Origin: Williamsia limnetica
Lineage (GTDB): Bacteria; Actinomycetota; Actinomycetes; Mycobacteriales; Mycobacteriaceae
Assembly (NCBI RefSeq): GCF_003217475.1
Contig: NZ_QJSP01000010.1
Coordinates: 62,001 to 126,000, forward strand
Reading direction: 5' to 3'
DNA: 64,000 nt
In this document: positions 16,256 to 28,433 of the stretch, in pieces
How positions within the stretch are numbered: the first letter of the stretch is position 1
Layout of the letters: every line of letters starts with the position of its first letter
Translations under genes and position numbers: made by a program
The notes under the pieces: generated by a model
What the model was told of the DNA's origin: nothing
Seen by the model: only the letters and a program-made list of their open reading frames with translations
Database searches by the model: none

Positions 16256-17245
16256 TCAGGCCGCCGCGGTTTCGCGCAGACTGCGACCGGTGAGGGTGAG
16301 GAAGACGTCGTCGAGGGTCGGGCGCGACGAGCGCGCCGCAGTGACGGTGATACCTCGTTCGGCGGCCGCCGTGATCAGGCGCGGCAACATGACATCGGCG
16401 CCGGCGACCTGCAGATCCACCAAAGTGCCGGTGACCTCTGCTCCGTGGACATTTTCGAGACCTGCGACCAGACGCACCAGTTCGTCGGCGTCGGAGACCG
16501 AGCCGACGGACAGTTCGACACGATCGCCTGCCAGGTTGTCCTTCAACGCAGCCGCGGAGTCGTCCGCGATCACGGTGCCCTTGTCGATCACCACCACGCG
16601 TTCGGCCATCGCGTCGGCCTCGTCGAGATAGTGGGTGGTGAGGACGATCGTCGCGCCCGTCTCGGCGCGCAACCGCTGGATATGGGCCCACAGGTTGGCC
16701 CGGCTCTGCGGGTCCATGCCCGTGGTCGGTTCGTCGAGAAAGATCACCGTTGGCCGGTGCACGATGCCCAGCGCGATGTCGAGGCGACGACGTTGCCCAC
16801 CGGAGAGGGTGCTGACCTTGCGGCTCTCCATCCCCGTCAGATCGAGCGCTGCGATGAGTTCGTCCGCGCGACGCGAACTTTCGGACTTCTTGATGCCGTA
16901 GCACAGACCCTGGGTCACCAATTCCTCACGGACGCGCTGGTTGTTCCCTCCGCCGTTGCCCTGGCCGACGTAGCCGATCTTGCGCCGGACTGCATCAGGA
17001 TCCTCTGCGATGTTGTGGCCGGCCAGCCACGCTGACCCTGAGGTGGGCCGGAGCAGCGTGGTGATCATCCGCAGCGTCGTCGACTTACCGGCGCCGTTCG
17101 GTCCGAGGAAGGCCACCAGCTCCCCTTCCGCCACCGCGAGGTCGATGCCCTTGACGGCCTCGACGGTGTTCTTGCCTTGCTTGAAGGTCTTGGTCAGCCC
17201 CGCTACCTCGATGGCCGGTGCGGTGCTGCTGGATGTAATCGTCAT
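16256..17245 (-). CDS. ABC exporter ATPase (DrrA-like)
   Basis: 329 aa. The nucleotide-binding domain has Walker A GPNGAGKST (about residue 43), a glycine/asparagine-rich Q-loop region GQGNGGGNNQRVREEL, signature LSGGQRRRL, Walker B VIFLDEPTTGMDP and the H-loop TTHYLDEAD. A C-terminal extension of about 90 residues ends TLDDVFLTLTGRSLRE, as in DrrA drug-resistance ATPases. It energises the permease encoded next. ATG 17245 is preceded by GGAGGG. The WYL regulator reads divergently 97 bases away and is the obvious candidate regulator. Confidence 0.93.
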   Translation of the reverse strand: MTITSSSTAPAIEVAGLTKTFKQGKNTVEAVKGIDLAVAEGELVAFLGPNGAGKSTTLRMITTLLRPTSGSAWLAGHNIAEDPDAVRRKIGYVGQGNGGGNNQRVREELVTQGLCYGIKKSESSRRADELIAALDLTGMESRKVSTLSGGQRRRLDIALGIVHRPTVIFLDEPTTGMDPQSRANLWAHIQRLRAETGATIVLTTHYLDEADAMAERVVVIDKGTVIADDSAAALKDNLAGDRVELSVGSVSDADELVRLVAGLENVHGAEVTGTLVDLQVAGADVMLPRLITAAAERGITVTAARSSRPTLDDVFLTLTGRSLRETAAA

Positions 17246-17342
17246 GATTTCCCTCCGATGTGGTGCCCGTGAAATGCGTCGACATGAAGCTATGACGGAT
17301 CGAGGACAGAAACGGTCCTCAATCTCTGGCATTGTTGAAAAC

Positions 17343-18311
17343 ATGTTGGACACCTCAGCGCGACTGCTTCGGCTCCTGAGCCTGCTGCAAACCCGTAAAG
17401 ACTGGTCAGGCGCAGATCTGGCGGAGCGACTGGACATCACCACTCGAACGGTGCGCCGAGACATCGACCGATTACGCGAGCTCGGTTACCCGGTCGAGGC
17501 CAGTGTCGGCGTCGGTGGCGGGTACCAGCTGGGCGCAGGCGCCGAGATGCCGCCGCTGCTGCTCGACGACCAGGAAGTACTGGCCGTGGCGCTCGGGCTG
17601 GGCGCGGGCGCCACCGGCTCGGTGGCCGGACTCGACGAGGCGTCGGTCCGGGCCATGTCGAAACTCCGCCAGGTGATGCCGTCGCGGCTGCGGCACCGGC
17701 TCGACTCACTCCAGGTCGATGCCACCCCGACCCGGGCACCGATCTCACAGGTCGAGGCTGCCGTGCTGTCCGACGTCGCGGCGGTATGTCACCGCCACGA
17801 ACGCCTTCGCTTCGACTACCTGGCCCGCGACGGCGCTGCGAGTCGCCGGGAGGTCGAACCATATCGATTGGTACGCAGTGGTTTACGGTGGTATCTGCTC
17901 GCGTGGGATCTCAGCCGGGACGACTGGCGGTCGTTTCGCGTCGACCGGTTGACCCCGAAGATCCCGACCGGCCCTCGGTTCGTCCCACGAGATCTGCCCG
18001 AAGGCGGTGCTGCCGCGTACATTGCCCGGAGCTTGGGGTCGGTGTACCGGCAGGCCACGGCGCGCGTCGAGATCCACAGCCCGCTCGAGCGGGTCGCCGA
18101 GATGGTCGACGCGGATTGGGGTGTGGTCGAGACCGGTGACGCGAACAGTTGCGAGGTGTCACTGTTCGGACAATCCGTGAGCGCAATAGCGCGGTGGCTC
18201 TACGCGTTCGACGCCGACTTCACCGTGATCAGCCCCGTCGAGCTCCGCGAGGAGTGCACCGGTTTGGCCGACCATCACCTGCAGATCGCCGACCGCTACC
18301 GCAACGCCTGA
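17343..18311 (+). CDS. HTH plus WYL-domain transcriptional regulator
   Basis: 322 aa. An N-terminal winged helix (SARLLRLLSLLQTRKDWSGADLAERLDITTRTVRRDIDRL) precedes a WYL domain with RSGLRWYLLAWDLSRDDWRSFRVDRL, then a WCX tail. WYL proteins sense ligands, in several cases nucleotides or single-stranded DNA, and act as repressors or activators. Being divergent from the DrrAB-like exporter it probably controls that operon (inference). ATG 17343 (MLDTSARLL) has little Shine-Dalgarno upstream, suggesting leaderless or weakly led translation. Confidence 0.88.
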   Translation: MLDTSARLLRLLSLLQTRKDWSGADLAERLDITTRTVRRDIDRLRELGYPVEASVGVGGGYQLGAGAEMPPLLLDDQEVLAVALGLGAGATGSVAGLDEASVRAMSKLRQVMPSRLRHRLDSLQVDATPTRAPISQVEAAVLSDVAAVCHRHERLRFDYLARDGAASRREVEPYRLVRSGLRWYLLAWDLSRDDWRSFRVDRLTPKIPTGPRFVPRDLPEGGAAAYIARSLGSVYRQATARVEIHSPLERVAEMVDADWGVVETGDANSCEVSLFGQSVSAIARWLYAFDADFTVISPVELREECTGLADHHLQIADRYRNA

Positions 18312-18324
18312 CCATACGCAAGGG

Positions 18325-18930
18325 TCAGACGAGGTGCTCTCGCTGCGCCACGGACTGCCGGGCCACCCGTGCGAAGACGTCCAGACGGAAATCGGTGTCG
18401 AGGTATCCGGCGGTGTGGACCAGGTCGGAGTCTCGCAGTCGGTCATGGACCTGGTCTCCGGTCTGCGGGTACTCCTCGACCGGCCATCGCCAGTGAACCG
18501 CTATCAGCTCGCCGTCGTCGGTCAAGGCAGCCGACGCATGTGCGATGACCGCGTCGAGTTGCGCGTGGTCGAGATAGTAGAGGACCTCGCTGAGGACTAT
18601 CAGGTCGAAAGAACCCGGCGGCCAGTCGGCGACGAAGTCACGGGTTTCGGCAATGGCTTGCCCACCTGCAGTTTTCAACCGCTCGGCCGCGATCTGGACC
18701 GCCTTGTCGCTGAGGTCGACAGCGAGCAGCTGCTCGCATCGGCTTGCCAACTGCTCACTGAGTACGCCTATCGAACAGCCCGCCTCGAACGCCCTGCGAT
18801 ATCGGGGTGCCGAGAGCGCCGCCATGGTCACCTGATATTTGCGCTGCTCGTACCAGCGGCTGGTGAAACCCCAGGGATCGTCGCTGTCGCGATACATCTC
18901 ATGAAAGTAACTCTCCTCCATGGGTGTCAC
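18325..18930 (-). CDS. NodS-like SAM-dependent methyltransferase
   Basis: 201 aa class I methyltransferase of the NodS type. Motif I is FEAGCSIGVLSEQLA (about residue 46), the acidic SAM ligand is in LLAVDLSDKAVQIAAERL, and DLIVLSEVLYYLD is the motif following. NodS N-methylates the deacetylated sugar of rhizobial Nod factors; here the neighbouring PIG-L deacetylase makes a similar N-methylation of a freed amine plausible (inference). Start GTG 18930 overlaps the PIG-L stop as GTGA. It is the last gene of the catalase-led operon. Confidence 0.85.
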   Translation of the reverse strand: MTPMEESYFHEMYRDSDDPWGFTSRWYEQRKYQVTMAALSAPRYRRAFEAGCSIGVLSEQLASRCEQLLAVDLSDKAVQIAAERLKTAGGQAIAETRDFVADWPPGSFDLIVLSEVLYYLDHAQLDAVIAHASAALTDDGELIAVHWRWPVEEYPQTGDQVHDRLRDSDLVHTAGYLDTDFRLDVFARVARQSVAQREHLV

Positions 18931-19697
18931 CGCACGAACACGTATTCGTCGCGACGCAGCAGCCGTTCGAGCACGTGTGGCGGCAGTACGACCTGATCGG
19001 CATCGGCCTCGGACAAGGGATGTATCTGGGAGGAGAACGCTTGCACTGCCGCCTTCTTCGTTGCCAATGCCGCATCGTCGAGACCGTGCGCCCGCAGTGC
19101 GTCCCAGGCGATCGTCTCCTCGCCCGGAATCGCCCAGTGCCACATCCATATCGGATACTGCCACAGCATCATCCCGCGCTCGGCGGTGATCCGCGACGCG
19201 CATCGGCCCACCGCTTCATGATCAGGATGGCCGTCGTCTTCCCAGACCGACAACACACCTGTGACCGTGTCGGTTCGCTCATCGAGAACAGCTTCGACGA
19301 TGCGTGTCATCGCGGCATCCGCAGTGGAGAGCGCACCGTCGGGGAGCCCGCCCCAGACCGAACGTTCCAAACCCAGGATGTCGGTGGCCGCGTCCAGCTC
19401 CGCGCGCCTGATCGCCGCCAGATCGTGCGGTGAGTGGGTCGGCGATCCGGGATGCGACCCAGAGCCATCGGACAGGCACACGGTGACCACGTCGACGCCG
19501 GCAGCCGCGGCGGCGATCATCACGCCTGCCGCACCGAGGATCTCATCGTCCGGGTGCGCCGCGAGCACCACCAGGCGTTCGACGTCGATCTCGAGCCTCG
19601 GGAGATCACCGCAGACTGAAAACCACTGCTGCCATTGTGTTTCGTCGGTTCCGCGGTCAGCCACGGGTGACGCCTCGAATCGTTCCGTACTCGTCAT
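18927..19697 (-). CDS. PIG-L family deacetylase
   Basis: 256 aa zinc hydrolase of the PIG-L/MshB fold, which removes acetyl groups from GlcNAc-like or similar substrates. The zinc motif VLAAHPDDEILGAAG (H-P-D-D) is near residue 45 and the second ligand motif GHPDHEAVG near residue 152. It has a C-terminal part ending LPPHVLERLLRRDEYVFVR. Some relatives are a single polypeptide with the methyltransferase that follows here as a separate, four-base-overlapping gene. It is not placed like mshB of mycothiol synthesis, so the substrate is open. Start ATG 19697 overlaps the previous stop as ATGA. Confidence 0.87.
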   Translation of the reverse strand: MTSTERFEASPVADRGTDETQWQQWFSVCGDLPRLEIDVERLVVLAAHPDDEILGAAGVMIAAAAAGVDVVTVCLSDGSGSHPGSPTHSPHDLAAIRRAELDAATDILGLERSVWGGLPDGALSTADAAMTRIVEAVLDERTDTVTGVLSVWEDDGHPDHEAVGRCASRITAERGMMLWQYPIWMWHWAIPGEETIAWDALRAHGLDDAALATKKAAVQAFSSQIHPLSEADADQVVLPPHVLERLLRRDEYVFVR

Positions 19698-20659
19698 GAT
19701 CGGTCTCCGAAGAAGTCGGGCGTGTCGCCCGCCACGAGTCGGCCCAGCGCCATCAGATCGTTGTCGGCGTGGGACTGCCTGATGTACACCGCGAGGTCGG
19801 CAACCGCCTGCGCGTGTTCTCCAGAGTGCACGAGAGGCGCCGGTCCCAGCGCCCTGTTCACCCGGTCGATCACCGCCGTCGCGATCTGTTCGATCGCCCA
19901 CCGCACGCGCAACGCCCGGCGCCGCGCCGCAGCCTCCTCGCGTGGAGCCTTGTCGATGGCGTCGGCGGCGTAGACCAGCTGCGACCAGCCGTCGGCCAGC
20001 AGAGCGTCGACGGCGCCGAGGTGCATCATGAGGATGTCGTCGCCCCCGGTGCGGGCCCTGTTGTACAGCGCGTCAGCGACCTTCGCCGCGCCACCGAGCC
20101 AGCACGCGGCGACCCCGACACCTCCGTGCCAGAATCCCGCACGCGCCAGGTAGTCCCCCGGTTCACCGACCGGCCGCGCAGCCACGTTCTCGAATTCGAC
20201 TGCTTCGGTGTCGGTTCCGGACATGCCCGCAGACCGCCAACCGCCCGATTGCGGATGGATCCCGTGCTGAGCCAGATCCACCGAGAAGAGTCGGCGTCGG
20301 TCACCGTCGCGGGCGGTCACCAGTGCGTGTGTGCAGCCGACCGCTCCCGAGCACCATGGCTTGGTGCCGTGCAGCCTCCACCGATTGCCGTCCCGGTGGG
20401 CTGTGACGACGTGAGTCGGCGGCTCTGCCGCCCACACACCCCACAACTCGCCCTGCCCGGCCCTGCACCCGGTGATCTCAACCAGAATTGCATCGGCGTC
20501 CAGGTGGGCCTCGACCATCCGTCCGACGCTGATGTCGGATCGCGTGAGCTCGGCCAAGGTACGGAAGCGGGTCGCGGTGTCGCCGGAACCCGGTAGAGGG
20601 GCGACGATGTCGTCTGAATCGACGATCTGCAAGGCCCGGTACGCCGCCGATGGCGTCAC
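19694..20659 (-). CDS. Short acyl-CoA dehydrogenase-like protein
   Basis: About 321 aa, shorter than the roughly 380 of ordinary acyl-CoA dehydrogenases. The middle domain is recognisable (GELWGVWAAEPP, RWRLHGTKPWCSGA, SGTDTEAVEFENVAA), followed by a helical C-terminal part, but the N-terminal helical domain is abbreviated. No typical catalytic-glutamate motif of the family (YEGT or YGGTNE) is visible at the end. It may be a flavoprotein with another role, such as oxidation of an amine or sugar. GTG 20659 overlaps the glycosyltransferase stop as GTGA, and its own stop overlaps the PIG-L start. Confidence 0.75.
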   Translation of the reverse strand: MTPSAAYRALQIVDSDDIVAPLPGSGDTATRFRTLAELTRSDISVGRMVEAHLDADAILVEITGCRAGQGELWGVWAAEPPTHVVTAHRDGNRWRLHGTKPWCSGAVGCTHALVTARDGDRRRLFSVDLAQHGIHPQSGGWRSAGMSGTDTEAVEFENVAARPVGEPGDYLARAGFWHGGVGVAACWLGGAAKVADALYNRARTGGDDILMMHLGAVDALLADGWSQLVYAADAIDKAPREEAAARRRALRVRWAIEQIATAVIDRVNRALGPAPLVHSGEHAQAVADLAVYIRQSHADNDLMALGRLVAGDTPDFFGDRS

Positions 20660-21342
20660 GATGCCTCCTCGCCCGCGAGTCCACGCAGGTGGTCTGCGAA
20701 CCCGCCCGACAGACGTCCGTGCGGCCGGGTCGAGGTGATCACCGGTGCGCGTGCACTCCACTCGATGGGCACCCCGGCGACCCGCAACCTGTTGACGAGG
20801 TCGACGTCTTCGTCGTGGTCGACCAGTGCGAAGCCACCGACACCGAAGTACACGTCCGCCCACAATCCGAGATTGGCGCCGTGGACGTGGCGGTGTCCGT
20901 CAGTCGCCTGATACGCAGCGGAAAAACGGTCGGCCACCTCGGCGGGCCAGCGCGCCCAGTCGTCGCCGACCACGGTGCCGACATACGCATCAGCACCTCC
21001 GGCGACAGCCTCGATTTGCGCAGTGAGCCAATGTATGGGGACCACCGAGTCTGCATCGGTGGTCGCAAACCACGTTTCGTCGGTCCACCTACTCGACTCG
21101 AAACCAACTTTTCGGGCCTGTCCGACCGATCGGCCAGTCGCCACCACTGCAGTCGTCGGCGGCATCACGCACGCGGCGGTGCCATCTGAGCAGTCATCGA
21201 GCACCACGATCACCTCAGCGGGGATGGCGGTTTCCGCGACAGCGGCACTGATCGAATCGAGGCACGAGGGCAATAGTGCCTGCTCATTGTGAGCAGGCAC
21301 CACCACGACGATCTTGTCAGGTCTTCGACCCTTCTCCGTCAA
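20656..21342 (-). CDS. Family 2 glycosyltransferase
   Basis: 228 aa GT-A fold enzyme without membrane helices. The N-terminal nucleotide-sugar site is VVVVPAHNEQALLPSCLDSI and VIVVLDDCSDGT, the metal-binding DXD is ATTDADSVVP, and an acceptor-side HDEDVDLVNRL follows. It would transfer a sugar from an NDP-sugar to an unknown acceptor in the cytoplasm. The start TTG at 21342 overlaps the HAD gene stop as TTGA and lies six bases after GAGGA, so the weak start codon appears to be reached by coupling. Confidence 0.87.
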   Translation of the reverse strand: MTEKGRRPDKIVVVVPAHNEQALLPSCLDSISAAVAETAIPAEVIVVLDDCSDGTAACVMPPTTAVVATGRSVGQARKVGFESSRWTDETWFATTDADSVVPIHWLTAQIEAVAGGADAYVGTVVGDDWARWPAEVADRFSAAYQATDGHRHVHGANLGLWADVYFGVGGFALVDHDEDVDLVNRLRVAGVPIEWSARAPVITSTRPHGRLSGGFADHLRGLAGEEAS

Positions 21343-22052
21343 CTCGGTCCTCGTCCGGGCCGACCGATCAGGCTCTCCACTGTCGCGTCGAGATCGTGTG
21401 CGAGATGAAGACTGTCCTGGAATACGCGCTTGGCACCGGCGCCACGCAACGCATCACCACTGATCCCACCGGTCAGTACTGCCACCGACCGGGCACCGGC
21501 CTTCGTGGCTGCGATCGAGTCCCAGGTCGCGTCGCCCACCATGATGGCGTTCGCAGGCTGGACGCCGGCGCGCTCGATGGCGATTTTCACCACTGTCGCA
21601 TCAGGTTTGGCGGTGTCGACATCCTCTCCGGACGTCACAGCGTCGACATGCTCCTCCACGTCGAGCAGGTCTCGGAGCAACGCCAGTTCCGCCTCAGGCG
21701 CCGACGTCGCCAAGACCGTGACGAATCCCAGTTCCTTCGACCGTCGCACGACCTCCCGCGCACCGGGAAGCAATGCGAGCGTGTCCCCGCGTGCCAGGTA
21801 GGCCTCCTTGTGCTTCGATGACGCCGAGTCCGCGAGGTCGGAGCGACCTGGGGCGTTGTCGTCCACCCCCGCGATCTGCAGGAGTTCGTCGATCAGGATC
21901 GATCCGTCCATTCCGATCCGTCGGTGAATCTCCCACAGGGGCACCGTCAGTCCCACTCCGGACAGGGCGTCGCGCCACGCGATCACGTGGGCATATACCG
22001 AATCGACAAGTGTGCCATCAATATCGAAGAGAATTGCGACCCGATCGCTCAC
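21339..22052 (-). CDS. HAD-superfamily phosphatase (phosphoglycolate phosphatase-like)
   Basis: 237 aa HAD subfamily IA enzyme. Motif I is ILFDIDGTLVDS, motif II the serine in VLATSAPE, the lysine is in DTAKPD, and motif IV is IMVGDATWDS. The cap resembles that of beta-phosphoglucomutase and phosphoglycolate phosphatase relatives, so a sugar phosphate is a likely substrate (inference). GTG 22052 begins only two bases after the catalase stop, behind AGGAGAAGG, and its stop overlaps the glycosyltransferase start. It therefore belongs to the same transcript as the catalase. Confidence 0.85.
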   Translation of the reverse strand: MSDRVAILFDIDGTLVDSVYAHVIAWRDALSGVGLTVPLWEIHRRIGMDGSILIDELLQIAGVDDNAPGRSDLADSASSKHKEAYLARGDTLALLPGAREVVRRSKELGFVTVLATSAPEAELALLRDLLDVEEHVDAVTSGEDVDTAKPDATVVKIAIERAGVQPANAIMVGDATWDSIAATKAGARSVAVLTGGISGDALRGAGAKRVFQDSLHLAHDLDATVESLIGRPGRGPS

Positions 22053-22054
22053 GC

Positions 22055-23572
22055 CTATGCCTTCTCCTGCATGCCGCTGCGTGCCGGGTTCCCCTGATCC
22101 GCAGCCTTCGGATCGGTCTCGTCGGCTTTGGCGCGCACCCCTTCTTGGATCTTCTTGCCGAGGTCGGCATCGACACGGTTCCAATACTCGAAGGCCCGCC
22201 CGAGTACCGGTTCACTCACACCGTTGAGCAGGTGCCCGACGATGTTGTCGACCAGCCGCTCTCGCTCGCCGTCGTCGAGCACTTCCCGCACGAGGGTGCC
22301 CGCCTGACCGAAGTCGTCGTCCTCGGGATGATCGACATAGGCACTCCGGACGATCTGACCGTCGGCAGCCCAGCCAGGGTCCACCTGGAAGGCCTGCGTC
22401 GCGGCAGGACCACCCTTGGAGTTCGGTGCGTACACCGGATCGGAGACGGCCTGTACTCGCATCGCACCGTCTTTCGAGTACGAATGTACCGGCGACTTCG
22501 ACGCGTTCACCGGGATCTGCTTGTAGTTGACGCCGATGCGGTAGCGATGGGCGTCGGAGTACGCGAATCCGCGAGCCAGAAGCATCCGGTCCGGGCTCAA
22601 TCCGATTCCGGGAACGAGGTTGTTCGGCTCGAACGCCAACTGCTCGATCTGGGTGTGATGGTCGGTCGGGTTCTCGTTGAGCGTCATCTTGCCGACCTCG
22701 ATGAGTGGGTAGTCGCCGTGCGGCCAGACCTTGGTCAGGTCAAAGGGATTGAACCGATACGCAGCCGCGTCGTCGAACGGCATCAACTGCACCTTCATGG
22801 TCCAGGACGGGAACTCACCCTTGTCGATGTGCTCGAACAGATCACGCGTGTGGTAATCGGTGTCGGCCGAGGCCATCTGGTCTGCTTCGTCCTGCGTGAA
22901 GAACTGGTGTCCCTGATCGGTGATGAAGTGGTACTTCACCCAGTGTTTGACGCCCTCGGCATTGACCCACAGATAGGTGTGCGAGCTGTAGCCGTTCATG
23001 TGCCGCCAGGTGCGCGGGATGCCGCGATCACCCATCAACCAGGTGACCTGGTGCGCAGACTCCGGCGACAGACTCCAGAAGTCCCATTGCATGTCGTGAT
23101 CGCGAAGATTGTTGTCCGCGCGTCGTTTCTGCGATCGGATGAAGTGCTGGAACTTCAGTGGGTCCTTGATGAAGAAGACCGGCGTGTTGTTGCCGACCAT
23201 GTCGTACACGCCTTCGGTGGTGTAGAACTTCAGCGCGAAGCCGCGCGGGTCACGCCAGGTGTCGGGGCTGCCGCGCTCGCCTGCCACGGTGGAAAATCTC
23301 GCCGCCATCTCGGTGGTGGTTCCCGGCTGGAACACCGCGGCGCTGGTGTAACCGGATACATCGCCGGTCACCTCGAACGAACCGAAGGCTCCGCTGCCCT
23401 TGGCGTGCGGCTGACGCTCCGGGATCCGCTCGCGGTTGAACTGGGCCATCTGCTCGATCAGGTAGTGGTCGTGCAGCACAATGGGTCCGCCGGCGCCCAC
23501 CGTCAGCGAATGCTCATCACTCGATACAGGCGCTCCGGCGTCCGTGGTGGTGTAAATCTGCTCATCTGGCAT
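22055..23572 (-). CDS. katA: Monofunctional haem catalase
   Basis: 505 aa small-subunit catalase that disproportionates hydrogen peroxide. The distal histidine lies in [16 protein letters not shown] (about residue 56), the distal asparagine in [11 protein letters not shown], and the proximal tyrosine region is [14 protein letters not shown]. The C-terminus is of the short (clade 3-like) type without a flavodoxin-like domain. ATG 23572 is preceded by GGAGG. No peroxide regulator is adjacent. The next gene starts two bases after its stop, and five more genes follow with 4-base overlaps, which is unusual for a catalase. Confidence 0.95.
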
Positions 23573-23677
23573 ATCGGCCTCCGACCGTCGTCGTCCAGGT
23601 GGGACCGCCGGTCGAAGCAAGTGGGCCGACGGTCTCGCGGGCGTACCGGCAATGCACCTTCAGGGCTCGTCAGGCAC

Positions 23678-23699
23678 AGCCGCCACTCGTGAGGTGGCT
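23678..23699 (-). terminator. Possible weak terminator after the potassium channel gene
   Basis: AGCCGCC (23678-23684) and GGTGGCT (23693-23699) form a seven-base stem with one G-T pair. It lies between the channel stop (23737) and the catalase start (23572). No T tract follows. Confidence 0.35.
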
Positions 23700-23736
23700 T
23701 ACCCCCAGACGGGTGAGTCGAAACCGCGCGCGACCA

Positions 23737-24543
23737 CTACGTTGCGCGGCCGTCGACGGCAGGGACCGCAGAATCGTCCGAACTCGCCGAGACGCCCGGC
23801 TCGCGCGCGAGGTCAGCGCGCAATTCCCTGATCTCTGAATGCAGCGCGTTGATCTGTTTGCGGGTCGCCACCATGTTCGCCTCGTCTTCTTCGTTCACTC
23901 GCTCGACGATCCAGGTCGCGATGGTCGCGGTGACCACGCCGATGAGGCTGATCCCCCCGATCATCAACCCGACAGCGATGAACCTACCGGTCAGTGTCGT
24001 CGGCGAATAGTCGCCGTACCCGATGGTGGTGATGGTCGTGATCGACCACCACAGCGCATCCCCGAAGGTTCGGATCGTCGCGTCGGCCTGGTCGCGTTCG
24101 GTGTCGAGGATCGCCAGCGAGGCAACGAAGATCAGGACGACGACGGTCACCACCGTGAACATCAACACTCGTCCACGGATGGCCCGTCCGGTCACGCGAT
24201 GTAGCACCGCCAGCACCGCGAGCAATCTCAGCAGCCGCAGCGGACGCAGGACCGGCAGCGCGACGATCAGCAACTCCGGCAGATGCCGGATGAACCACCG
24301 CGGCCTGTTGTCCGACAAGACCAACCGGATCACGTAGTCGACGACGAACACCGCCCAGGAAGCCCAGATCGTGATGTCGAGCAGTCGGCCGTTGAGGCCT
24401 ACCGGTTCGTCGAGCACCTCGACGGCGTAGGCCGCGATGAACAGGACGCCGACGGCCGCCAGCGGCCACTCGGTGAGCGCGATCCATCGCTCCTGGGTCA
24501 TCGCCGGCCGCGTGTGCGAGACACGATCGGTGTCGGTGCTCAT
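23737..24543 (-). CDS. Voltage-gated-type potassium channel
   Basis: 268 aa. It has six predicted membrane helices: four in the first 135 residues, including the basic S4-like HLPELLIVALPVLRPLRLLRLLAVL, then the pore domain with selectivity filter TTITTIGYGDYSP between two further helices. The C-terminus is a charged helical tail (NEEDEANMVATRKQINALHSEI) likely to form a coiled coil of the tetramer. There is no RCK domain. ATG 24543 follows GAGGGG. It should carry potassium across the cytoplasmic membrane. Confidence 0.9.
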   Translation of the reverse strand: MSTDTDRVSHTRPAMTQERWIALTEWPLAAVGVLFIAAYAVEVLDEPVGLNGRLLDITIWASWAVFVVDYVIRLVLSDNRPRWFIRHLPELLIVALPVLRPLRLLRLLAVLAVLHRVTGRAIRGRVLMFTVVTVVVLIFVASLAILDTERDQADATIRTFGDALWWSITTITTIGYGDYSPTTLTGRFIAVGLMIGGISLIGVVTATIATWIVERVNEEDEANMVATRKQINALHSEIRELRADLAREPGVSASSDDSAVPAVDGRAT

Positions 24544-24629
24544 CGTCTTCCCCTCGGTTGTCGATGCGTCAGTACACCGCAGCCCAGGGCTCATCTGGCG
24601 GTGATCGGTGAACTCAGACACCCGGACAG

Positions 24630-24668
24630 CACTGTGCCGCGGATCCGGTGGGGATCCACGGCACAGTG
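24630..24668 (-). terminator. Terminator of dctA
   Basis: Arms at 24630-24646 and 24652-24668 (17 bases each, starting CACTGTGCCG) pair with one mismatch around a five-base loop, ten bases beyond the dctA stop. Confidence 0.8.
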
Positions 24669-24678
24669 GAGCGTTCGG

Positions 24679-26073
24679 TCAGACCGTGGCGACTGGTTTC
24701 TTGTCGTCGACCTCGACCTTGTCCCACCGGTCGTCTCCGTCATCGACCATCGACAGTTCGTCGAACGGGTCGTTGCCGGCGAGAACGCCGTTGACCTTGT
24801 CCATGTCGACTGTCTTGGTCCACGAACCGACCAGCATGGTGGCAACAGCATTGCCCGAGAAGTTGGTGACCGCGCGGGCCTCGGACATGAACCGGTCGAT
24901 TCCGACGATCAGTCCGACGCCCTCGAGCAGTTCCGGTCGGTGGCTCTGCAGGCCGCCGGCGAGGGTCGCGAGTCCGGCACCGCTGACGCCGGCCGCTCCC
25001 TTGGAGGCGACGATCATGAACACCAGCAGGGAGATCTGCTCGCTCAGCGAGAGCGGGTCGCCCATCGCCTCGGCGACGAACAGCGAGGCCATGGTCAGGT
25101 AGATCGCGGTGCCGTCGAGGTTGAACGAGTAACCGGTCGGGACAACAACTCCGACGGTGGTGCGCTCGACGCCGAGGTGCTCCATCTTTGCGATCAGTCG
25201 TGGCAGGGCCGACTCGGACGACGAGGTGGCGAAGATCAGCAGGTATTCGCGGGCCAGGTAGCGGACCAGCTTGAAGATCGAGATTCCCGAGACGATGCGC
25301 AGCAGGAGCCCGAGGATCACGAAGACGAAGATCGCGCAGGTCACGTAGAAGCCGAGCATCAGCGTCAACAGTTCGGTGATCGCACTCCAGCCGGTCTGCC
25401 CGACCACGTTGGCGATGGCACCGAACGCACCGATCGGGGCCAGCCACAGGATCATACCGAGGACCTTGAACACGACCTTCTGGATCAGCTCGATCGCCCG
25501 CAGGATCGGGTCACCGCTCTTGGTGGGCAGGGCCTGGATGGCGAAGCCGACGAGCAGCGCGATGAAGAGGGTCTGCAGCACGCTGCCCTCGGTCAGTGCG
25601 GACAACATCGAGGTGGGGATGATCCCCTGCAGGAAGTCGAGGGTGCCGCCGGCCTCGTGGGCCTTGTCTGCCAGGTCCTCGCCGGTGCCCATCTTTGACG
25701 GATCGATCGTGAGTCCGCTGCCCGGGGTGAGCAGGTTGCCCACCACGAGTCCGATGGCGAGCGCGACCGTCGACATCAGCAAGAAGTAGCCGAAGGCGAG
25801 TCCCCCCACCTTGCCGACCGTCGCGGCCGCCCGCACCGACCCGATCCCGAGCACGATGGTGCAGAAGATCACCGGGCTGATCATCATCTTGATCAGGCTC
25901 ACGAACATGGTGCCGAGCACACCGAGGTCCTCGCCCACACCAGGCGCCACCAGGCCGACGATCACACCGGCGACGACCGCGATGATCACCGCGATGTAGA
26001 GCCAGTGCGTGCGGTCACGCTTCTTTGGAGCCGGCGGCTGCGCGGCTGTCGAACGGTCTGCTGCTGTAGTCAT
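24679..26073 (-). CDS. dctA: C4-dicarboxylate / proton (sodium) symporter DctA
   Basis: 464 aa DAACS-family carrier for succinate, fumarate and malate. It has eight predicted membrane helices with the two re-entrant loops: HP1 serine-rich ATSSSESALPRLIAKME, the VVVPTGYSFNLDGTAIYLTMASLFVAE segment of TM7, and HP2 SKGAAGVSGAGLATLA. Substrate-binding ARAVTNFSGNAVAT is in TM8. The C-terminal 45 residues are acidic and soluble. ATG 26073 follows GGAAG. It is divergent from a CitA/DcuS-type sensor kinase, the usual arrangement for dicarboxylate control. Confidence 0.93.
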   Translation of the reverse strand: MTTAADRSTAAQPPAPKKRDRTHWLYIAVIIAVVAGVIVGLVAPGVGEDLGVLGTMFVSLIKMMISPVIFCTIVLGIGSVRAAATVGKVGGLAFGYFLLMSTVALAIGLVVGNLLTPGSGLTIDPSKMGTGEDLADKAHEAGGTLDFLQGIIPTSMLSALTEGSVLQTLFIALLVGFAIQALPTKSGDPILRAIELIQKVVFKVLGMILWLAPIGAFGAIANVVGQTGWSAITELLTLMLGFYVTCAIFVFVILGLLLRIVSGISIFKLVRYLAREYLLIFATSSSESALPRLIAKMEHLGVERTTVGVVVPTGYSFNLDGTAIYLTMASLFVAEAMGDPLSLSEQISLLVFMIVASKGAAGVSGAGLATLAGGLQSHRPELLEGVGLIVGIDRFMSEARAVTNFSGNAVATMLVGSWTKTVDMDKVNGVLAGNDPFDELSMVDDGDDRWDKVEVDDKKPVATV

Positions 26074-26178
26074 GATCGACTTCCTTTGTGAATGCGGAAG
26101 GAACGGGTCTGAAAGAATGGTGATACCCAGAGTGAGCCAGGTCACGCTTAAGTTCATTTCGTTCAGACGGAGTTGTTC
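26074..26178. promoter_or_regulatory. Divergent promoter region dctA / sensor kinase
   Basis: This 105-base gap holds the control sequences of both dctA (leftward) and the sensor kinase (rightward). The Shine-Dalgarno GGAG at 26169-26172 belongs to the kinase. The AT-richer stretch around 26145-26165 is the likely promoter core, and the response regulator at 27741 is the expected binder (inference). Confidence 0.5.
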
Positions 26179-27744
26179 ATGACGAAGTTGGTGCCGCGCT
26201 CACTGGCGGGTCAGGCGTTCGTGCTGCAGCTCGTCGTGGTCGCGGTGATCGTGATCGCCGGCAGCACCCTGGCCCTGCTCGATGCCCGTCGTGATGGCGA
26301 TTCCGCTGCCAGGCAGCAGGTGGTCGGGATTGCCAGCGCCCTGGCCCAATCGCCCTCGACCGCCGCCGCGATCGAATCAGGCGCCGCCACGCCGGTTCTG
26401 CAACCGGTCACCGAGGACGTCCGGGAAGACACCGGCGTCGCCTTCATCACCATCATGGCGCCCGACCGCACCCGCTTCACCCACACGAACCCGACCCTCA
26501 TCGGGCAGGACTACCTCGGCACCATCGAACCGGCGTTGCAGGGCGAGACATTCACGGAGGTCTACACCGGAACTCTCGGACCGTCTGTCCGCGCGGTGGC
26601 GCCGGTCCGCTCGTCGTCCGGTGAGATCATCGGCCTGGTGTCCGCCGGTATCACGCAGCAGACACTCGCCCAGCGCTGGCGCGACGAACTCCCGCAGATC
26701 ATCCTCATCGCCCTCGCAGCGTTGGGCGTCTCATTGATCGGCATCTGGGCGATCCGGCGCAGAGTGCTCCGGCAGACCCACGGGCTCGGGCCGACGGAAC
26801 TGCAGGTGATGTACGAGCATCACGACGCCATCCTGCACTCTGTGTCCGAAGGCCTGATCGTTCTCGACCGTCGCGGGGTCGCGTTGGCGAACGACGAGGC
26901 CCGCCGGCTCCTGTCACTACCCGACGGCGACATCGACAAGGACGTCTTGCCGCCCTTCCTGCGCTCTTTCTCCCCCGGCGCACGCGACGAGGTACACGTG
27001 ACCGGCGACCGCGTGCTGGTGGTCAACCGGTCGCACGTTCCCGGCGAGCGTTCTCCCGACACCGAAGTGGTCACGATCCGTGATCGCACCGAGTTGCAGG
27101 GAGCACTCGGCGAGCTCGATTCGATGAAGGTGTTCGCCGAATCTCTTCGCTCGCAAGCCCATGAATCCGCCAACCGCCTGCACACGATCGTCACCCTGGT
27201 CGAGATGGGCCGCGGCGACGAGGCCGTGAAGTTCGCGACCACCGAACTGGAACTGTCCCAACGGCTCGTCGACCGTATGTCGGAGGCAGTGGGCGAACCT
27301 GCCTTGGCCGCTCTGCTGCTCGGCAAGAGTTCGCAGGCCGACGAGCGCGGTATCAATCTGACCATCACCGATGACACCGAACTGTCTGCCGATGCCGAAG
27401 ATGTGCCGCTCTCGGGGCAAGAGCTGATCACCGTGGTCGGCAACCTGATCGACAACGCCCTCGATGCCTGCGACCGCGACGACCCCTGGGTGGAAGTGAC
27501 TGTGCGACAAGAAAAAGACGAGCTGTTGATCCAGGTCGCCGACAGCGGCCACGGAATGGACCCCGACGAGTTCGCCCGGGCCATGCAACGCGGATACTCG
27601 ACGAAGTCCGGAGGTGAGCAGGGTCGACGGGGGCTGGGCCTGGCGCTCGTCGCACAGGTGGTAAATCGTCATCACGGCACGCTCACCGCCGAGATGACCT
27701 ACGGTTCGGTCGTGACCGTGAGAGTTGGTAAGGAGCACCGGTGA
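26179..27744 (+). CDS. CitA/DcuS-family sensor histidine kinase
   Basis: 521 aa. An N-terminal helix (about 10-32) and a second near residue 172-190 flank an extracytoplasmic PAS-like (sCache) domain with RFTHTNPTLIGQDYLGT, the dicarboxylate/citrate sensor type. A cytoplasmic PAS follows, then the phosphoacceptor helix LRSQAHESANRLHTIVTL. The ATPase domain has N-box VVGNLIDNALDAC, G1 DSGHGMD and G2 RRGLGLALV. ATG 26179 was chosen over TTG 26173 because GGAG lies six bases before it. It should sense external dicarboxylates and phosphorylate the regulator encoded next. Confidence 0.92.
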   Translation: MTKLVPRSLAGQAFVLQLVVVAVIVIAGSTLALLDARRDGDSAARQQVVGIASALAQSPSTAAAIESGAATPVLQPVTEDVREDTGVAFITIMAPDRTRFTHTNPTLIGQDYLGTIEPALQGETFTEVYTGTLGPSVRAVAPVRSSSGEIIGLVSAGITQQTLAQRWRDELPQIILIALAALGVSLIGIWAIRRRVLRQTHGLGPTELQVMYEHHDAILHSVSEGLIVLDRRGVALANDEARRLLSLPDGDIDKDVLPPFLRSFSPGARDEVHVTGDRVLVVNRSHVPGERSPDTEVVTIRDRTELQGALGELDSMKVFAESLRSQAHESANRLHTIVTLVEMGRGDEAVKFATTELELSQRLVDRMSEAVGEPALAALLLGKSSQADERGINLTITDDTELSADAEDVPLSGQELITVVGNLIDNALDACDRDDPWVEVTVRQEKDELLIQVADSGHGMDPDEFARAMQRGYSTKSGGEQGRRGLGLALVAQVVNRHHGTLTAEMTYGSVVTVRVGKEHR

Positions 27745-28433
27745 TCAACGTTCTCATCGTCGAAGACGAACCATTGATCGCCGAGGCGCACCATACCTAT
27801 CTCGGAAGGATCGCCGGTTTCACCGCGGTCGCTACCGTCAATACCGCCCGGGAAGCGATGCGCGTTGCCGCAGGCGCGGCAGCGAGCGACGCCCCCGTCG
27901 ACCTGGTGCTGCTCGACATCGGACTTCCCGACGCGAGCGGTATCGATCTGGCGTCCGCGCTGTCAGGGCTTCGGCCCGCGCCGGACATCATCGCCATCAC
28001 CTCCGAGCGCGACCTCGAGGTGGTTCGGGCCGCAGTCGCCAACGGGGCACTGGCCTATCTGCTCAAACCGTTCACCTTCGCGGCGTTCCGCGACCGACTC
28101 GAGCGCTACCAGCGATACCGGGAGGCGCTTCCCGCCGGGACAGATGCGGCCAGCCAGGCCGAGGTCGACCGCGCCTTCGCCGAATTACGTACCGGCACAG
28201 ATCGATCCGCTGCACCCAAAGGCGCTGCACCGGCAACCACCGATGAAATCGCACGTGTGGTCCGCGACGCCGTCGACGGCATCACCGCTGCCGATGCAGC
28301 AAAGGTAGTCGGTGTGTCGCGGGTGACCGCCTGGCGCTATCTCGAACGCCTCGCCGACGACGGAACACTGCTGCGCCACACCGACTACGGCAACGCCGGA
28401 CGACCCAAGATCCGCTATCAGTGGCGCCGCTGA
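27741..28433 (+). CDS. CitB/DcuR-family response regulator
   Basis: 230 aa. The receiver domain has the acidic pair VEDEP, the phosphoacceptor in DLVLLDIGLPDASG (about residue 57), the threonine in IAITSERD and the lysine in YLLKPF. A C-terminal helix-turn-helix follows (TAADAAKVVGVSRVTAWRYLERLADDG). Start GTG 27741 overlaps the kinase stop as GTGA. It probably activates dctA when phosphorylated. Confidence 0.92.
   Translation: MINVLIVEDEPLIAEAHHTYLGRIAGFTAVATVNTAREAMRVAAGAAASDAPVDLVLLDIGLPDASGIDLASALSGLRPAPDIIAITSERDLEVVRAAVANGALAYLLKPFTFAAFRDRLERYQRYREALPAGTDAASQAEVDRAFAELRTGTDRSAAPKGAAPATTDEIARVVRDAVDGITAADAAKVVGVSRVTAWRYLERLADDGTLLRHTDYGNAGRPKIRYQWRR

Follow-up and report, generated by a model that had tools for sequence, protein, structure and literature searches.

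Gene content and organization of the locus

The window (the whole stretch of DNA analyzed, 64,000 nucleotides of Williamsia limnetica, NZ_QJSP01000010.1, positions 62,001 to 126,000) carries on its minus strand, at 18325-23572, a run of six genes in the order katA, HAD phosphatase, GT2 glycosyltransferase, acyl-CoA dehydrogenase (ACAD)-like flavoprotein, PIG-L deacetylase, and NodS-like methyltransferase. This run has two parts, the katA-HAD pair of the host and a separable cassette of the last four genes, which is gained or lost as a block. At a little better than an even chance, we read the whole as a stress cassette for sugar addition, deacetylation, N-methylation, and flavoenzyme oxidation that has been attached to the host pair. 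The features are as follows.

22055..23572, minus strand: katA, small catalase of 505 amino acids (aa), first gene, host part (PF00199, 602 bits; PF06628, 67 bits).
21339..22052, minus strand: HAD-IA phosphatase, 237 aa, host part (PF00702, 97 bits; PF13419).
20656..21342, minus strand: GT2 glycosyltransferase, 228 aa, cassette gene 1 (PF00535, 50.5 bits); TTG start overlapping the HAD stop.
19694..20659, minus strand: ACAD-fold flavoprotein, 321 aa, cassette gene 2 (PF02770, 36.4 bits, cut-off 33.3).
18927..19697, minus strand: PIG-L (LmbE) N-deacetylase, 256 aa, cassette gene 3 (PF02585, 93 bits).
18325..18930, minus strand: NodS-like S-adenosylmethionine (SAM) methyltransferase, 201 aa, cassette gene 4 (PF05401, 62.2 bits, cut-off 24).
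18325..21342, minus strand: four-gene cassette GT2-ACAD-PIG-L-NodS, missing as a block in genomes G005-G008.
23699..23725, minus strand: candidate SigF/SigB-type general-stress promoter, GGTTT-N16-GGGTAA, approximately 126 bases upstream of the katA ATG.

katA and the HAD gene are separated by 2 bases, and the next four junctions are 4-base overlaps (TTGA, GTGA, ATGA, and GTGA); judged from this spacing, the six genes are probably one transcript. The end of a convergent gene, a WYL-type regulator by eye, lies 13 bases beyond the NodS-like stop, so the unit ends there. The NodS-like gene starts with GTG, an alternative ATG at 18921 being possible. The six proteins are all kept in four other Williamsia genomes at 60-96% identity, which marks them as real genes and their order as not due to chance. 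Among the matches listed (25 of 38 families), the HAD protein stays below all NCBIfam equivalog cut-offs. A preliminary description of this DNA had given the same six minus-strand genes with these coordinates, gap, and overlaps, the same family names, and one probable transcript; we find the genes as it placed them, Pfam matches agree with all six names, and the spacing supports the transcript.

Separation of the katA-HAD pair from the cassette

Nine Williamsia genomes were compared (G000-G008; G000, own genome). A katA homologue is present in all nine and is preceded by the same channel gene in eight; the katA-HAD pair is likewise found in 9/9, the block GT2-ACAD-PIG-L-NodS in 5/9. HAD directly follows katA in loci L035-L038 and L177-L180, and the ACAD-like gene of the five cassette-bearing genomes is each time next to katA and HAD; in G004 all six stand together at the edge of a contig and lack the flanks seen in the window. 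In G005-G008, katA (86% identical) stands behind the same channel gene; next come HAD and, directly after it, the regulator gene that trails NodS in the window. The flanks are syntenic with the window, and exactly the GT2, ACAD-like, PIG-L, and NodS-like genes are absent. This exact four-gene absence between syntenic flanks identifies katA-HAD as the host pair and the other four genes as the cassette.

The six-gene pathway of the preliminary description is thus kept as a contiguous run and given up as a fixed set, as katA-HAD exists without the other four genes in 4/9 Williamsia genomes. For the same reason the catalase is rejected as an obligate cassette member, a role also contradicted by the genera and Rubrobacter-type loci without a nearby catalase that are counted below.

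Distribution and co-conservation of the cassette

The ACAD-like protein was found in 28 of 61 genomes (own included; matches better than 1e-15) and, at E 1e-20, in 49 of 396 genomes of the phylum. Seventy-three loci were examined (67 from genomes, 6 from a plasmid collection; 53 genera). All four functions lie within 6.5 kb of each other in 59/73 loci and 44/53 genera, on one strand in 55 loci; chance adjacency is ruled out by this co-occurrence. Pairwise distances of the four proteins correlate (Mantel r 0.66-0.77, 26 genera), shared species history also contributing, and PIG-L/NodS fusions occur in loci L049, L053, L098, and L103.

Versions of the cassette are found in Actinomycetota, Pseudomonadota, Deinococcota, and a cyanobacterium. 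Plasmid versions were seen in Acinetobacter, Cupriavidus, Pandoraea, Comamonas, and Kitasatospora; in Deinococcus radiodurans, Rubrobacter, Sulfitobacter, Bradyrhizobium, Roseomonas, and Sphingobium; in Komagataeibacter, Legionella lytica, Paracoccus, and Novosphingobium; and, by profile, on a Nostoc plasmid. Incomplete versions are those of D. radiodurans and Roseomonas (no GT2 match nearby), Deinococcus proteolyticus and Paraburkholderia (NodS-like and GT2 only), and Cupriavidus (no PIG-L between ACAD and NodS, a PIG-L adjoining the catalase instead). A pattern scan of IMG/VR for phage carriage returned no relative.

Two enlarged arrangements were also observed. In L104 (2207-10475) a WcbI polysaccharide enzyme and several glycosyltransferases stand behind a PIG-L/NodS fusion, with related genes in L043 and L112. 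On Rhizobium leguminosarum plasmid pSK03 (L165, 7414-10416) a protein of 1000 residues combines GT2, NodS-like, and CE4 domains; its gene is neighbored by glycosyltransferases and an ABC transporter gene, and no ACAD-like match was found in the stretch.

Deacetylases, methyltransferase, and glycosyltransferase

In PIG-L, the zinc-binding and catalytic residues of the HPDDE and D-x-H-x-DH motifs (H48, D50, D51, H157, D159, and H160) are invariant in 23 rows. The best PDB relatives are diacetylchitobiose deacetylases, followed by BshB, glycopeptide, and MshB deacetylases. Scores stay below the NCBIfam equivalog cut-offs for BshB1 (61/182.5 bits), BshB2 (54/195 bits), and Mca (35/277 bits), and the MshB model is not among these three NCBIfam matches of the protein.

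The deacetylase slot of the 73 loci holds PIG-L in 48, a NodB-type CE4 protein in 18, both in 0, and neither in 7. All 18 Rubrobacter-type loci lack a PIG-L match and have a NodB-like CE4 gene instead (17 of family f32 and one of f23, from 18 of 24 such genomes). Wherever both genes were called (17/17 loci), the CE4 gene immediately precedes the ACAD-like gene, with a 4-base overlap in 8. The assignment to CE4 is by PF01522 in the one representative scanned; two histidines are invariant and the aspartate pair nearly so, and among PDB structures chitin/xylan-type and peptidoglycan GlcNAc deacetylases are closest. That one operon slot can be filled by either of two unrelated deacetylases is strong evidence for a step that takes an N-acetyl group off a sugar.

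NodS N-methylates deacetylated GlcNAc in Nod factors. The NodS-like protein of the window has NodS (3ofj) as its second PDB match at 112 bits, the next characterized enzyme scoring 56 bits; against the NCBIfam NodS equivalog (NF041650) it scores 68.5 bits, below the cut-off of 300. Its top PDB match (4isc, 216 bits) is titled only Methyltransferase and looks like a member of the cassette methyltransferase family. In the GT2 protein, D96-x-D98 and E178-D179 are invariant (23-row alignment). Steps of amino-sugar deacetylation and N-methylation, as predicted from these family relationships, are well supported. Sugar addition, deacetylation, and N-methylation had all been put forward in the preliminary description, and they gain support from the family matches, the deacetylase swap, and the relationship to NodS.

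The ACAD-like flavoprotein

The ACAD-like protein of the window matches only PF02770, the ACAD middle domain, and is not among the 95 matches to the ACAD C-terminal domain (PF00441) in its own 6.35 Mb genome (G000). Across the family, PF02770 was found in 24/24 members and PF00441 in 5/24 at E up to 1; of the NCBIfam models, SfnB matches 19/24 members and DszC 6/24 at E up to 0.1. Matches in PDB are acyl-CoA dehydrogenases mixed with DszC, methanesulfinate monooxygenase, nitrososynthase (3mxl), and DnmZ. S163 of DszC aligns with invariant S104, and W205 with invariant W141, possibly flavin-pocket residues common to the fold; DszC H92 aligns with a variable position, in an alignment that covers only part of the ACAD-like protein. 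The position aligned with the catalytic glutamate of acyl-CoA dehydrogenases is not Glu, the end of the alignment being uncertain there. The Rubrobacter indicoceani operon includes a reductase closest to dioxygenase ferredoxin-NAD+ reductases; none is present in the operon of the window.

The protein belongs to a divergent family and is a probable flavin monooxygenase or oxidase; N-oxygenation is given less than even odds. Of the 'short' ACAD of the preliminary description, the ACAD fold (PF02770) remains, in a divergent family outside the PF00441 matches of its own genome. Its 'oxidizing' enzyme stands as an ACAD-fold flavoprotein, and oxidation of a fatty acyl chain is no longer the default, the likeness to SfnB/DszC-type enzymes being about equal to that to fatty-acid dehydrogenases; that default is weakened by the SfnB/DszC-like matches and the failure of PF00441.

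On the D. radiodurans plasmid (L163, 3187-5526) the ACAD-like protein has 779 aa, with Pfam ACAD domains in the C-terminal half only; its first approximately 400 residues have no Pfam match at E up to 1e-5.

Catalase, other stress neighbors, and candidate promoter

Catalase genes were counted in 36 genera (49 genomes), the 24 Rubrobacter-type genomes being left out. In 7/36 genera, one or more genomes have a catalase at most 12 kb from the ACAD-like gene, and in six of the seven the distance is at most 4.3 kb; random placement would give 0.39 genera (P 7e-8). The link to peroxide or stress that the preliminary description suggested is supported: catalase recurs beside the cassette, different catalases stand there in unrelated lineages, and many lineages are without one. 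G036 and G416 have no nearby catalase although their genera count as positive. Catalase sizes vary, with about 500 aa in Williamsia and L039 and about 690-770 aa in L051, L054, L092, L095, and L104. The large catalase gene of L104 and the ACAD-like gene share 4 bases. In L094 (G154:C13:200290-201446) the catalase by the cassette is in two overlapping pieces; whole copies are present in other genomes of the genus.

Outside Actinomycetota, a catalase is found near the core on Acinetobacter, Cupriavidus, Sulfitobacter, Paracoccus, and Novosphingobium plasmids, in Sulfitobacter and Novosphingobium on the same strand and beside the core or its glycosyltransferase genes; none was found in the stretches seen of Pandoraea, Comamonas, Bradyrhizobium, Roseomonas, Sphingobium, Komagataeibacter, and Legionella lytica. 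A HAD homologue is near the cassette in 4/36 genera, 27 genera having one. Trehalose genes occur as otsA-core-otsB in Comamonas and otsB-GH65-core in Legionella lytica, and the cores of Acinetobacter, Cupriavidus, and Paracoccus have trehalose or glucan genes in their vicinity. In L108 the run that holds the core also includes a SpoIIE phosphatase and a sigma factor; Ku/LigD are near it in Bradyrhizobium and Ku in Novosphingobium. The stress association of the cassette is solid.

The promoter candidate GGTTT-N16-GGGTAA fits the actinobacterial SigF/SigB consensus. The copy upstream of katA is the sole match to GGTTT-N15-17-GGGTA in the 64 kb on both strands, and GGTTT-N16-GGGTAA is kept in 4/5 cassette-bearing Williamsia loci, being missing in L038; no sigma-70 promoters were found in 17200-24800.

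In Acinetobacter baumannii, Table 2 of an expression report gives ACICU_02432-02435 (glycosyltransferase, SAM methyltransferase, LmbE, and acyl-CoA dehydrogenase-related) as one operon; in colistin-dependent mutants these genes are down 31-62 fold together with otsA, otsB, and a catalase, in a dataset with 33 genes down more than 10-fold (PMC5660220). Matched by product names and order, not by sequence, ACICU_02432-02435 looks like the cassette.

Elsewhere in the window, at 24679-28433, a DctA-type C4-dicarboxylate carrier gene (name read from the translation) lies beside a divergent sensor kinase/response regulator pair; synteny of this region is maintained in Williamsia.

Proposed pathway and alternative explanations

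The catalytic steps, their order, the acceptor, and the product are predictions. The GT2 enzyme would transfer an amino sugar in N-acetylated form to an acceptor, PIG-L would take the acetyl group off, the NodS-like enzyme would N-methylate the freed amine, and the ACAD-fold flavoprotein would carry out an oxidation with O2, for which the amine is the most likely site. The pathway would run under stress, alongside trehalose, catalase, and DNA-repair functions, and would yield either a small glycoside of an N-methylated amino sugar or a modified surface sugar. A phosphatase accompanies some cores (HAD here; OtsB in Comamonas and Legionella lytica) and may remove the phosphate of a glycosyl-phosphate intermediate; the catalase would remove peroxide arising from stress or from uncoupled flavin turnover. 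The cassette product is probably a protective compound for stressed or dried cells. A bolder version, which we consider unlikely as a whole, is a new class of protectant made from Actinomycetota to Deinococcus, also on plasmids, with interchangeable PIG-L/NodB-type deacetylases: an amino-sugar glycoside that would be both N-methylated and N-oxygenated (as a hydroxylamine or nitrone), might have trehalose or trehalose phosphate as its scaffold, and would act as radical scavenger or glass-former in dried cells.

Several observations weigh against a stress cassette of this kind. Part of the set is absent from 14/73 loci; several of these are cut by contig ends, and L112, L113, and L138 are incomplete despite ample surrounding DNA. 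In 29/36 genera the ACAD-like gene has no catalase within 12 kb, none was seen in the 18 Rubrobacter-type loci, some of them short, and adding 12 Rubrobacter-type genera with an assumed two catalases each raises the expectation to 0.56 (P 1.1e-6). A looser SigF-like pattern precedes the operon in only 6/53 genera, a modest excess over 35/1334 called genes. The GT2 protein gives no clue to donor or acceptor, its best PDB matches being ArnC-type enzymes and a GT2 protein whose specificity is not named. SfnB and DszC scores are far under the equivalog cut-offs (window protein, SfnB 16.2/430.9 bits), and canonical acyl-CoA dehydrogenases are equally good PDB matches. No published assay of any cassette enzyme was found in the open-access literature.

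The strongest competitor, itself rather unlikely, is the tailoring of a surface glycan or glycolipid, in which the cassette would decorate a polysaccharide or lipid-linked sugar in the manner of Nod factors and would make no free protectant. It draws on the extra glycosyltransferases and the WcbI enzyme of the L104 operon, the extra glycosyltransferase genes of Novosphingobium and Sphingobium, the Rhizobium GT2/NodS/CE4 fusion beside glycosyltransferases and an ABC transporter gene, and the precedents of NodB and NodS. It has to contend with a window cassette without flippase, polymerase, or exporter (the neighborhoods of the other loci were not searched for these), with the short GT2 of the window, and with trehalose enzymes in direct operon linkage. 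That the flavoprotein is instead a true acyl-CoA or acyl-carrier dehydrogenase, the product being an acylated sugar with a desaturated fatty chain, seems improbable: the ACAD fold, the domain counts for PF02770 and PF00441, and a good profile fit to the ACADs of the genome itself (98.5%) speak for it, and against it are a window cassette with neither acyltransferase nor acyl-CoA ligase, tentatively the glutamate position, the SfnB/DszC-like matches, and the oxygenase-type reductase in Rubrobacter.

A pathway to a redox cofactor like mycothiol or bacillithiol (glycosyltransferase, phosphatase, PIG-L, and further steps) is highly improbable. The stress context and a gene order that resembles MshA, phosphatase, and MshB would suit such a cofactor; the PIG-L scores against BshB1, BshB2, and Mca, the missing MshB match, the lack of a cysteine ligase in the window cassette, and the ability of CE4 to fill the PIG-L slot would not. 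We give almost no weight to the absence of any joint pathway, that is, to stress genes grouped by shared regulation and each acting alone. General-stress islands do gather unrelated genes and the neighbors of the cassette do vary; set against this are four functions kept together across phyla, with overlapping genes, PIG-L/NodS fusions, and replacement of one deacetylase by another.

Deinococcus and Rubrobacter are known for resistance to radiation and drying. The stress cassette proposed here has versions in both, in Acinetobacter, and in many soil actinomycetes, and no product is assigned to it in the literature found. Its enzymes predict a concrete chemistry (amino-sugar deacetylation, N-methylation, then oxidation) that would take a Nod-factor-like logic beyond symbiosis and would offer a handle on the survival of drying and peroxide by such bacteria.

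Comparison with known systems

The preliminary description knew of no described pathway with this gene set, and likewise none was found in the open-access literature among the matches listed, beyond the table in PMC5660220; subscription journals may hold one. The cassette was not identifiable in the parts seen of PMC13130816, PMC10653896, PMC12647597, and PMC12029717. ACICU_02432-02435 of A. baumannii resembles it in having the same four products in one operon that falls with otsAB and a catalase; the part of that report seen proposes no function for the genes (PMC5660220).

Mycothiol synthesis (MshA-MshB) is similar in its order of glycosyltransferase, phosphatase, and PIG-L, and the compatible-solute genes otsA-otsB are similar in that the core of Comamonas and that of Legionella lytica each share a run with trehalose genes; neither system has a counterpart of the N-methyltransferase and the flavoenzyme, and the BshB and Mca cut-offs lie above the PIG-L scores. 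In NCBIfam and PDB, the best matches of the ACAD-like protein include the ACAD-fold flavin monooxygenases SfnB, DszC, and nitrososynthase (3mxl, DnmZ); the protein differs from them in being shorter (321 vs. approximately 400 aa), in scoring far below the cut-offs, and in that the catalytic histidines could not be placed.

The core of Nod-factor synthesis (NodC, GT2; NodB, CE4; NodS) has the same three kinds of step, namely GT2 transfer, N-deacetylation of GlcNAc, and N-methylation of the amine. The cassette departs from it in a NodS-like protein below the NodS equivalog cut-off, a PIG-L enzyme in place of NodB in the window, the extra flavoenzyme, and a context of stress instead of symbiosis; no NodC model is among the 8 NCBIfam matches of the GT2 protein at E up to 0.001. 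The two systems come closest in that NodS is the nearest characterized methyltransferase and that the Rubrobacter form of the cassette carries a NodB-like CE4 deacetylase.

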